Origin: Vampirovibrio chlorellavorus
Lineage (GTDB): Bacteria > Cyanobacteriota > Vampirovibrionia > Vampirovibrionales > Vampirovibrionaceae
Direction: 5' to 3'
Length of the DNA: 64,000 nt
NCBI RefSeq assembly: GCF_003149375.1
Contig: NZ_QFWH01000002.1
Coordinates: 248,001-312,000 of the forward strand
Positions 50,615 through 57,032 of the stretch are shown here, in pieces. Made by a program: the position numbers and the translations under genes. Below the pieces are notes generated by a model. It was not told the DNA's origin and did not search any database. It was given only the letters and a program-made list of their open reading frames with translations. Each line of letters starts with the position of its first letter. The stretch's first letter is position 1.

Positions 50615-50688
50615 TGAGAACTTCTCTCAGTAGTGCTTTACAAGTGAGAATCTTTATCATTTAATTTTATTGTTGAGAATAATTCTCA
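50615..50688 (+). promoter_or_regulatory. Three Fur-family boxes around a promoter
   Basis: Three 7-1-7 inverted repeats: TGAGAACTTCTCTCA (50615-50629), TGAGAATCTTTATCA (50645-50659) and a perfect TGAGAATAATTCTCA (50674-50688). They match the TGATAATnATTATCA form of Fur/Zur/PerR sites and are spaced 30 and 29 bases, about three helical turns. A promoter TTTACA-N17-TTTAAT (50637-50665) has the middle box exactly in its spacer. This is the layout of strong repression by a Fur-family metal or peroxide regulator. Confidence 0.7.
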
Positions 50689-50789
50689 GCCAAATGGGTT
50701 TCCTATATCAACCGAATCGTCAGATTAGTTATTGCAAGTCAGTGGCCCCGTTTCAACATCAGTCGGGGCCTTTACAGGAGCGCGTCGGC

Positions 50790-52082
50790 ATGGATTTGAG
50801 CAGTGCAATCGCAAGTACGAAACTTAACCTGAGGGCTATGGGGCATTATCTGGATCAGCCCAACGTGGTTCGCTCCTCCACCAAGGTGGCTGGCGTTGCT
50901 GGCGTGGCGGGTCTGGGGGCCTTAATGGGCTACGATGCCTGGAAGGCGCAGCCTCAGGAGCGAAAAAAAGTGCTGATTCGGGATGGTATTGTACTGGGTG
51001 CCACCACGGCGGGGACTCTGGCTGCCGCTGCCGTATTGATGAAGCCACCCAGCAAGAAGCTGATTCAGTATGAAATGAAAGAGCTGGGCGAAAAGCTGGC
51101 GAATTTGAAGGACCAGTACCCGGTCATTCAGGAGCTGCTGAAGGCAAAGCCCTTTGAGCAACGGCAGCAGTTGAGTGTCCGGGAATTCAAGGATTTGATT
51201 AAGGGCATGCGGGATACCCCGAAGCTGGATAAAGCCCTGGACAAAGCTAAGATTGAGGCGGATTTGGACGAACTGCTGCCCATTGGGAAGAATGAAGTTC
51301 TAGAGGGCAAAGGATGGGAATTGCCCAAAGCCATTTGGCAAAAGCTGACCAAGGTGGAGCAAAAAGGCGAGATTTCGGTGAAAGAAGGCGAGCTGTGGAA
51401 AATGCGCGACTTCTTCAGCGTGGGTCTGGCCTCGGTTATCAGTGGTGGCTTGGGCGGTGTTTTGGCTAATAAAGTGAACAAAGTGCAAGATCCTGATGCC
51501 ATCGTGAACATGTGCAAAGAGGGAATTTTCCAGTTTGTGGCCAATATTGCCCTGTGCGCGGTGGGGGCTTCTATCGGGCTGGTGACTGTGGAACTGCCCC
51601 AGGTGCAGCAACTTTTGCAAAAGTTAGACCCCGCTGTCGCTCGGGTGGGCAAATTTGGCATTATTGGGACGGGCTTGAGTCTGGGCATTCTGGGTGGGGG
51701 CAAAATCGCCAACCAGTTGGGCACCAAAGTGGTGAATCCCTTCTTTGATAAATTACAGGGCAAAGCCCCTCAGCCGCAGAACGCCCCTGAAAAACGGCGC
51801 ATTGAATTCGCCGACGCCATTTTGCACGTGGACGATTTGCCCACGGCGCTGGCGTTAGCCGGGATGGAAATTATGGAACCGTTTATTCCCCTGTTTTTTG
51901 CCTTTTCCGGGTACCGCACCGGCATTGGTTACCGTAATCATGAATCCGCCACGAACGGCGCTTCTACCGCCAAGTTTACCGGCCAGGTGATTCCGCCGCT
52001 GCCCCCACAACGGTTGCAGGCCAACGGTTCTCAGCCTACCCCCATGGAGAGGGCGTATCCCTATGCCCAGTATCGTCCTTAA
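50790..52082 (+). CDS. Multi-segment membrane protein under Fur-type control
   Basis: 430 residues from ATG 50790 (AGGAG 9 bases upstream). The longer frame would begin inside the operator. Hydrophobic Gly/Ala-rich segments lie at about 35-50, 60-80, 215-235, 250-275, 285-305 and 360-380. A charged helical region (about 85-205: LIQYEMKELGEKLANLKDQYPVIQELLKAKPFEQRQQLSVREFKDLIKGMR) probably faces the cytoplasm. The tail is Pro-rich (TGQVIPPLPPQRLQ, AYPYAQYRP). No metal-binding motif or known transporter family is seen. The metal-type operator suggests a role in iron, zinc or manganese stress. Confidence 0.7.
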   Translation: MDLSSAIASTKLNLRAMGHYLDQPNVVRSSTKVAGVAGVAGLGALMGYDAWKAQPQERKKVLIRDGIVLGATTAGTLAAAAVLMKPPSKKLIQYEMKELGEKLANLKDQYPVIQELLKAKPFEQRQQLSVREFKDLIKGMRDTPKLDKALDKAKIEADLDELLPIGKNEVLEGKGWELPKAIWQKLTKVEQKGEISVKEGELWKMRDFFSVGLASVISGGLGGVLANKVNKVQDPDAIVNMCKEGIFQFVANIALCAVGASIGLVTVELPQVQQLLQKLDPAVARVGKFGIIGTGLSLGILGGGKIANQLGTKVVNPFFDKLQGKAPQPQNAPEKRRIEFADAILHVDDLPTALALAGMEIMEPFIPLFFAFSGYRTGIGYRNHESATNGASTAKFTGQVIPPLPPQRLQANGSQPTPMERAYPYAQYRP

Positions 52083-55830: not shown

Positions 55831-56853
55831 TCAGGATGGGTCGATGCCAAGTTGCTGCCTGATCCAGGGGATGGTTTGCTGGGCGATAAACCCGCCCATG
55901 ATGGGCAAGGCCGCAGTTTTGACCAGAAACACGGGTTGTATCAGCAGTTTCAAGTTGTCGATTAACTTGAACTGATCCAGGGCCTGCCAGACTGCTGAAG
56001 GGATTTTCTTGCCCAGCTGCCGGTTTCGAATGCCGCACAGGGCCAGTACTGCGGCCATAGGGGCCAGGGCGGGGAGCATTTTTAAAAGCAAAACGGCAGT
56101 GGCCCCCTCTTTAAAGGCATGTTGGCTGTTCAGTTCCTTGTCCAGTAACTGTTGATAAGCCTGATCGGGGTTGGTGATGGGCGGTTTGGCCAGCTTTAAC
56201 CGTTGCCGCAGGGTGGGCGGCTTGGGTTGAAAACGCCCTTGCCGGGCTTCTTCTTTTGCTTTTTTAACTTCTTCAAACCGGCTGGCGGCCTGCCCCACAA
56301 ACCAGGGGCCCAGGGCCATGCCTGCCGAAATGCCGATCAAGGCGGTGCCCGCCACGCTGGTTAAAAAGGTGGGCATGGGCTTTAGCAGGGCCTTGCTCCA
56401 AACCATGTTGTGGGGTCGGCGGGCTCTTTCCGTCAGGATTACCAGTTCTTGAATCAGATTCCCTTTGAGTTCACCCGTTTTTTTTCGTGCGGCGTTGTTG
56501 ACGTAGGACTCCACGCCCCAAATGGGCAAAGCGGCGATTAGGCTGAACAATAAACCGTTTTTGACCCCAATGCCCACACCATGTCTTCCTTTGAGCATTT
56601 GATCCCCTAAAGGCGTCTGTGAAGGATTCGGCTTGGGTGGGGTGATGGAGGATATGGACGGAGCAGGCGGCGTAGGCCAGCCGGAAGGGCCTGAAGTCGA
56701 TGACGTTGAACTAGAAGCGTGCTGGGGAAGCGGGTAAAGGCCCAGAGGGCCTGCGAGGGTATGCCGAGATCCGCTCAAGGCCTGCGGGTAGGGGGCTAGC
56801 GGATAGGGATAGGACAATGGTGGGTTCAGTAGTGGTAGTGGAGCAGGCAGCAT
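55831..56853 (-). CDS. Membrane protein with Pro/Ser-rich N-terminus, unknown
   Basis: 340 residues from ATG 56853 (AAAGGG 8 bases upstream). About 1-90 is Pro/Tyr/Ser-rich (PYPLAPYPQALSG, SSSTSSTSGPSG). Then come hydrophobic segments at about 110-128 (LLFSLIAALPIWGVESYV), 175-200 (FLTSVAGTALIGISAGMALGPWFVG), 265-285 (AVLLLKMLPALAPMAAVLALCG) and 310-325. A basic helical loop (EEVKKAKEEARQGRFQPKPPTLRQRLKLAKPP) separates the second and third. The overall plan is like the Fur-boxed protein at 50790, without clear sequence identity. No family recognised. Confidence 0.65.
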   Translation of the reverse strand: MLPAPLPLLNPPLSYPYPLAPYPQALSGSRHTLAGPLGLYPLPQHASSSTSSTSGPSGWPTPPAPSISSITPPKPNPSQTPLGDQMLKGRHGVGIGVKNGLLFSLIAALPIWGVESYVNNAARKKTGELKGNLIQELVILTERARRPHNMVWSKALLKPMPTFLTSVAGTALIGISAGMALGPWFVGQAASRFEEVKKAKEEARQGRFQPKPPTLRQRLKLAKPPITNPDQAYQQLLDKELNSQHAFKEGATAVLLLKMLPALAPMAAVLALCGIRNRQLGKKIPSAVWQALDQFKLIDNLKLLIQPVFLVKTAALPIMGGFIAQQTIPWIRQQLGIDPS

Positions 56854-57032
56854 TATGAAACCCTTTGAATGAATTGCTTGATTGAAACAAACCCAAACAG
56901 GAAGCACAGTTGTTAGTGATTTTTCGGTTTACGGAATGGACAGGCCAAGCGCTGGCTGGTCTGTTTTCTCATATTAAAAACGGGTTCGTTTGGATACAAT
57001 AGCCATGCGCTTACCAACTGGAGAGCCTTGCC

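Follow-up and report, generated by a model that had tools for sequence, protein, structure and literature searches.

The intergenic region at positions 50615–50688 of the window, the 64,000-nucleotide stretch of Vampirovibrio chlorellavorus DNA analyzed here, raises two questions: which regulator acts on its three dyads, and what the membrane protein encoded behind them does. The window belongs to a genome of 2.79 Mb in 14 contigs (G000) that lies near Vampirovibrio. Our preferred reading, to which we give a probability of roughly 0.6, is that the dyads are operators of an iron-sensing Fur and that the target is a probable importer of Fe(II) (or Fe/Mn) induced by iron starvation. The features are collected in Table 1.

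Table 1. Promoter elements and target gene (positions in the window)
Feature	Position	Strand	Remarks
Fur box 1, TGAGAACTTCTCTCA	50615..50629	.	5/7 dyad pairs; precedes the −35 hexamer
Probable −35 hexamer, TTTACA	50637..50642	+	Invariant in the five-genome promoter alignment
Fur box 2, TGAGAATCTTTATCA	50645..50659	.	5/7 dyad pairs; occupies the 17-nt promoter spacer
Probable −10 hexamer, TTTAAT	50660..50665	+	TTTAAT in 4/5 genomes, TTAAAT in G001
Fur box 3, TGAGAATAATTCTCA	50674..50688	.	7/7 dyad pairs (perfect dyad); spans the expected transcription start
Ribosome-binding site, AGGAG	50776..50780	+	9 nt 5′ of the ATG; read from the sequence
Target gene, 430-aa polytopic membrane protein	50790..52082	+	Vampirovibrionia-specific family (alignments, distribution, models)

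The three 7-1-7 dyads described in the first-pass annotation, the perfect third one included, are all found where it placed them, and its start-to-start distances (30 between boxes 1 and 2, 29 between boxes 2 and 3) and its placing of the middle box in the TTTACA-N17-TTTAAT spacer are reproduced. The mismatches to TGAGAATNATTCTCA number three in box 1, two in box 2, and none in box 3; the whole genome has just two further perfect TGAGAATNATTCTCA sites. When the 250 bp upstream of the gene were dinucleotide-shuffled 5000 times, no shuffle had three sites at ≤3 mismatches and one had two, so that the claim of an arrangement far beyond chance holds, also in view of the conservation across genomes described below. 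As 7-1-7 dyads near TGANAATNATTNTCA in excess of chance, the boxes are of the iron-type Fur kind. The probability that chance produced these palindromes, or that they form a terminator or RNA element, is negligible: single sites at ≤3 mismatches are indeed expected at 1.64 per 64 kb, but the shuffles and the cross-genome conservation refute chance, and neither a terminator in the scan nor a match in Rfam was found.

The position of the boxes relative to the promoter should be noted. They lie over it (with the start site predicted), which fits repression, as in an iron-type Fur regulon. The promoter scan, whose rule was 9/12 matches and an A at position 2 of the −10 hexamer, did not list the TTTACA/TTTAAT pair, and the promoter call therefore rests on conservation. 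A longer form of the reading frame, starting with TTG at 50670, overlaps box 3; the ATG of the annotated gene, with its AGGAG, is the better start.

In the promoter alignment of five Vampirovibrio genomes, box 2 is the most conserved block. TGAGAATnnTTATCATTnAAT is present in 5/5 genomes, and TTTACAA-n-TGAGAATnnTTATCATTnAAT is nearly invariant even in the two genomes with diverged flanks. Box 1 aligns in 4/5 genomes (one mismatch in G002 and G004, two in G001) and is lacking in G003; box 3 is also perfect in G002 and G004, with one mismatch in G003 and three in G001. Four of the five keep three boxes at 30 and 29 bp, and G003 has two boxes at 31 bp. Distant Vampirovibrionales carry one or two boxes, the pairs being 22–25 bp apart, and across relatives the spacing ranges over 22–31 bp at the target family gene and about 27–41 bp at other targets. 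Because the spacing varies in this way, strict helical phasing is rejected; the term used in the first-pass annotation is loose, 29–30 bp being about 2.8 turns. The boxes are found in 11/11 Vampirovibrionales promoters of the target family (21 sites at ≤2 mismatches vs 0.03 expected), and in eight other genomes of the order 39 sites were counted at ≤1 mismatch vs 0 for the reversed control pattern. Fur-like sites are rare in the promoters of Gastranaerophilales (3 vs 0.5 expected). Conserved, beyond chance, and positioned over the promoter, the boxes bear out the tight Fur-family control that had been proposed, and such control of the target promoter is, as judged from sequence, close to certain.

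The genes that share the boxes point to the metal. In G001 and G003, feoA-feoB has a box at ≤1 mismatch before it; in G007 such a box is placed some 275 bp 5′ of FeoB, and a 2-mismatch box precedes the feoA-feoB of the window genome itself (L043). In G003, boxes also precede the flavodoxin operon and TonB-ExbB, and another is located in the neighborhood of a TonB-dependent receptor gene. The genome scan suggested as a check in the first-pass annotation thus finds the boxes before known iron genes of the lineage. A box pair adjoins a FecCD/ABC/periplasmic-binding/receptor cluster in G000 and G004; since the cluster is transcribed towards the pair, it is a neighbor and only a possible target. 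The proposal depended on a Fur-family regulator in the genome, and four Fur-family genes are present, one Fur-like and three paralogues. The Fur-like protein (G000:C4:274923-275288) matches Pfam FUR with 126 bits, and its best PDB matches are Fur proteins. The paralogues are a Zur-like protein on contig C2, a PerR-like protein on C10 adjoining a rubrerythrin-like gene, and a short protein on C1 with its own palindrome, TGAAAATCATTTTCA, beside its gene. None of the four, the C4 protein included, reaches an NCBIfam equivalog cut-off, and the names Fur, PerR, and Zur are therefore given by best resemblance.

Because the boxes precede feoA-feoB, the flavodoxin operon, and tonB-exbB, the regulator is most likely an ordinary iron-Fur rather than part of the undescribed metal- or peroxide-response system that had been suggested; the PerR-like and Zur-like paralogues are distinct from the Fur-like protein. 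Binding of Zur or PerR, with zinc or peroxide control, would be conceivable given these paralogues and the mutual resemblance of Fur-family boxes. However, where a boxed gene is known, it is an iron gene, and the short paralogue has a different palindrome, so that a zinc or peroxide regulon is rejected and this alternative is very improbable. That the metal sensed is iron rather than another metal is highly probable. The palindrome on C1 (G000:C1:336086; L041:4087) is common to the gene of the short paralogue and a divergent gene for a 276-aa unknown protein, and perhaps marks a separate autoregulated regulon.

Several other genes carry the boxes. Two boxes (G000:C2:372238 and 372279; L040:4239, 4280) lie upstream of an S-methylthioadenosine-phosphorylase-like gene (PNP_UDP_1), an unusual Fur target; this gene is boxed in five genomes of the order (also L151, L159, L162, and L164), mostly by pairs about 35–41 bp apart. 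Two boxes are also found between divergent genes for 468-aa and 195-aa proteins (G000:C8:153848-153889, L039:4349-4390; L160; L167), which adjoin the FecCD/ABC/TonB-receptor cluster; the 468-aa protein is unannotated and has no Pfam match. A perfect box recurs near the gene of a 172–208-aa protein without a Pfam match (G000:C3:192442, L038:4443; L161:5023; L166:1036), which in G003 comes after flavodoxin in a boxed operon. In two genera, a perfect box is followed by a beta-eliminating-lyase-type PLP enzyme (L154:4965-6368; L156:3695-5008).

The boxes resemble Fur boxes of the 7-1-7 type and the sites of cyanobacterial FurA in the 7-1-7 dyad, the TGAGAAT/ATTCTCA half-sites, the operator placed over the promoter, and the iron genes in the regulon. 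The published consensus of Anabaena FurA, AAATAAATTCTCAATAAAT, includes ATTCTCA, and one proposal reads it as a 7-1-7 element (PMC4005646). The sites here differ in being much nearer to a perfect TGAGAATNATTCTCA palindrome and in standing three in tandem.

The target protein belongs to no recognized family, as the first-pass annotation had stated: no sequence relative was found in Pfam, NCBIfam, or the PDB. Neither it nor 17 of its relatives gave a Pfam match, and the FeoB_N GTPase, Gate/FeoB_C, and Nramp domains were not detected in them. It is 87% identical to a Vampirovibrio MAG protein and 80–82% to that of V. chlorellavorus NCIMB 11383. Family relatives occur in 148 of 386 genomes drawn from the phylum, all in the class Vampirovibrionia among the matches listed; a search of the genome collection gave 290 candidate stretches with relatives. 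The protein has about six hydrophobic segments (near residues 33–51, 66–84, 208–226, 249–267, 289–307, and 350–368). Two AlphaFold models of good quality (pLDDT 83.1 and pTM 0.80; pLDDT 90.1 and pTM 0.86) matched no solved fold in Foldseek searches against the PDB; their best E-values were 0.22 and 0.14, with TM-scores of at most 0.28, and no match was transporter-like. By profile comparison, no kinship was detected with the 468-aa protein (L039:2846-4249) or with the membrane protein at 55834-56907 of the window.

The invariant residues cluster in the C-terminal half of the family alignments. Glu244, Gln248, Asn252, and Cys256 follow one another in four-residue steps along one helix, and Gly295/Gly299/Gly303, Asn308, Arg336, Glu339, Asp342, His346, Asp348, Asp349, Pro364, Ser373, Tyr381, and Arg382 are likewise invariant. 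Histidine makes up 11.5% of the Gastranaerophilales tails past the last conserved motif; elsewhere in the protein its share is 1.3%, and in the 15 C-terminal residues of neighboring proteins it is 2.5%.

The family gene was also compared across 80 loci, 75 of which are not Vampirovibrionales and are mostly labeled Gastranaerophilales (some MAG titles among the 75, such as Fusobacterium, Clostridiaceae, and Acinetobacter, look like mislabels). A gene for a DtxR/MntR-type repressor adjoins the family gene on the same strand in 56/75 loci, 5′ or 3′ of it and often with an overlap of 1–8 bp. The promoter regions of 68/75 loci contain TGTTAGGNNNNCCTAACA-like sites (TGTTAGG-N4-CCTAACA-like, at ≤4 mismatches), 104 in total vs about 8 in shuffles (5–14 per shuffle), and several lie directly 3′ of a TTGACA-type promoter. 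These operators include TTAGGNNNNCCTAA, the 14-bp redefined IdeR/DtxR consensus proposed in a study of IdeR (PMC8464063). Across whole genomes, DtxR sites at ≤2 mismatches are no more numerous than those of the reversed control, and the claim is thus limited to the sites at the family locus. No DtxR-family gene (PF02742) was found in G000 or in 12 other Vampirovibrionales tested, and one is present in 14/14 tested family-bearing genomes of two gut families. Among ten Gastranaerophilales genomes without the family, five have a DtxR gene, with no family gene beside it, which looks like loss or missing sequence.

The boxes in Vampirovibrionales and the DtxR gene and operators in Gastranaerophilales together suggest that the same gene is under Fur or a DtxR-type repressor depending on the order. 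The unrelated iron-type repressor of the gut relatives is a second link to iron, independent of the Fur boxes, and makes the target a promising candidate for a protein that takes up iron in a new way. The Gastranaerophilales arrangement shares with DtxR/IdeR/MntR metalloregulation the Pfam domains of the regulator (Fe_dep_repress and Fe_dep_repr_C), the TTAGGNNNNCCTAA in the operator, and the regulator gene beside its target. It differs in the shortness of the regulator, the mixed metal site, and the new target family, and the system is not in G000.

The metal site of the regulators should be considered, since it bears on manganese as the metal. All 56 intact regulators have Asp8, Glu11, His77, Cys99, Glu102, and His103 (B. 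subtilis MntR numbering); an additional fragment in L099 does not have the full set. Cysteine at the position of Glu99 of MntR is the residue of the iron-sensing DtxR. The site is accordingly mixed, Asp8 being as in MntR and Cys99 as in DtxR, which makes manganese conceivable. In Vampirovibrionales a Mur-like Fur, and in Gastranaerophilales an MntR-like protein, might then control a manganese importer, as would suit the best scores of the short neighbors with MntR models (below the NCBIfam equivalog cut-offs), the Asp8 and Glu11 of MntR, and the absence of Nramp/MntH from all 30 genomes tested. The Cys99 of every intact regulator, the IdeR consensus within the operator, and the Fur boxes of the same type before feoA-feoB, flavodoxin, and tonB-exbB all argue against manganese, and it is rather improbable.

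Iron thus being the preferred metal, the distribution of known importers was compared with that of the family. FeoB (FeoB_C) is absent from 12/12 tested Gastranaerophilales genomes with the family, and FeoB_C is present in 6/6 Vampirovibrionales tested and in 7/7 tested genomes of class families without the target protein. Among the Gastranaerophilales genomes that do not carry the family, FeoB is likewise missing from 9/10 and Nramp from 10/10. Strict replacement of FeoB by the family is therefore rejected, and either another importer exists in these genomes or the assemblies miss genes; among importers, the tests covered FeoB and Nramp. Since Vampirovibrionales keep FeoB, the target protein is not the sole iron route there. 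The proposed likeness to FeoB lies in a Fur- or DtxR-repressed inner-membrane uptake of Fe(II); the target lacks the GTPase, Gate, and FeoB_C domains, is not similar to FeoB in sequence, and is not a member of that family. Similarly, a DtxR-family repressor beside a membrane protein would parallel the MntR-MntH pair, the target differing in its lack of a Pfam match and Nramp being absent as described above.

The polytopic build, the invariant polar, acidic, His, and Cys residues, the His-rich tails, the absence of FeoB and Nramp, and a ferritin gene nearby in five loci are the observations that suggest transport. A role in metal acquisition is fairly likely, and the chance that the protein itself imports the metal is about even or slightly lower. 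Iron control may also be right with the target serving in membrane remodeling, as a receptor, in iron sparing, or as a scaffold for another transporter. This would be in keeping with the lack of a fold or family match to any transporter, with the conserved GxxxG-type glycines (Gly295/Gly299/Gly303), which could serve helix packing only, with the FeoB and TonB-dependent uptake that Vampirovibrionales already own, and with the Gastranaerophilales that have neither the family nor FeoB. However, an adjoining DtxR-type repressor with few other strong sites resembles regulator-transporter pairs, and the His-rich tails and invariant Glu, His, Asp, and Cys residues point to metal contact; we consider such a role unlikely.

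In the importer reading, iron-sensing Fur, most likely the C4 protein, would bind the three dyads as operators. When iron is plentiful, Fe(II)-Fur on boxes 1–3 would cover the −35 hexamer, the spacer, the −10 hexamer, and the start site, shutting the promoter. The covering of the promoter argues for repression and the co-regulated iron genes for induction under iron starvation, so that the 430-aa protein would be made when iron is limiting, and it would most probably bring iron (Fe2+, perhaps Fe/Mn) in through the inner membrane. Residues that might handle the metal are the Glu244/Gln248/Asn252/Cys256 stripe on one helix face, Asn308, and the Arg336-Glu339-Asp342-His346-Asp348-Asp349 cluster. 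In Gastranaerophilales, a DtxR/MntR-type repressor, usually encoded beside the family gene, would act on the same gene instead. Tentatively, and somewhat short of even odds, the family may further be an Fe(II) (or Fe/Mn) importer class that is new, without structural precedent, and restricted to Vampirovibrionia, which is a main metal importer in the FeoB- and Nramp-less Gastranaerophilales and whose operon has switched between Fur and a DtxR/IdeR-type regulator under the same signal.

The novelty is in the target protein and in the DtxR/IdeR-type control of the same gene in the sister order. The main text of the V. chlorellavorus genome paper makes no mention of iron, siderophores, or TonB (PMC4451040). 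Literature searches on FeoB, ferrous iron, and DtxR in Melainabacteria and Gastranaerophilales gave no title or abstract that concerns this system, and no published account of iron uptake in the class Vampirovibrionia was found in the literature searched. The analysis links a conserved unannotated family, spread through a whole class that comprises algal predators and common gut residents, to a function that can be tested, iron uptake. At the sequence level it is a clear case of one gene under two unrelated iron-type repressors in sister orders and, if the importer reading is true, the few bacterial Fe(II) transporters gain a new fold.

Further features were observed around the family loci. 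L209:3740-6584 (G380) has four genes in a row: the DtxR gene and the family gene, then one that is Fur/PerR-like and one that is rubrerythrin-like. In L070, L073, L080, L084, L087, L091, L103, L107, and L119, the family gene has a TGTTAGG-N4-CTAACA palindrome directly at its stop codon; the palindrome could be an operator or part of a terminator hairpin, and these 3′-end copies were left out of the promoter-operator count. A second small protein of 141–155 aa is encoded behind TGTTAGG-N4-CCTAACA sites in Gastranaerophilales (L187:1094-1519; L188:3764-4219; L105, L111, and L114).
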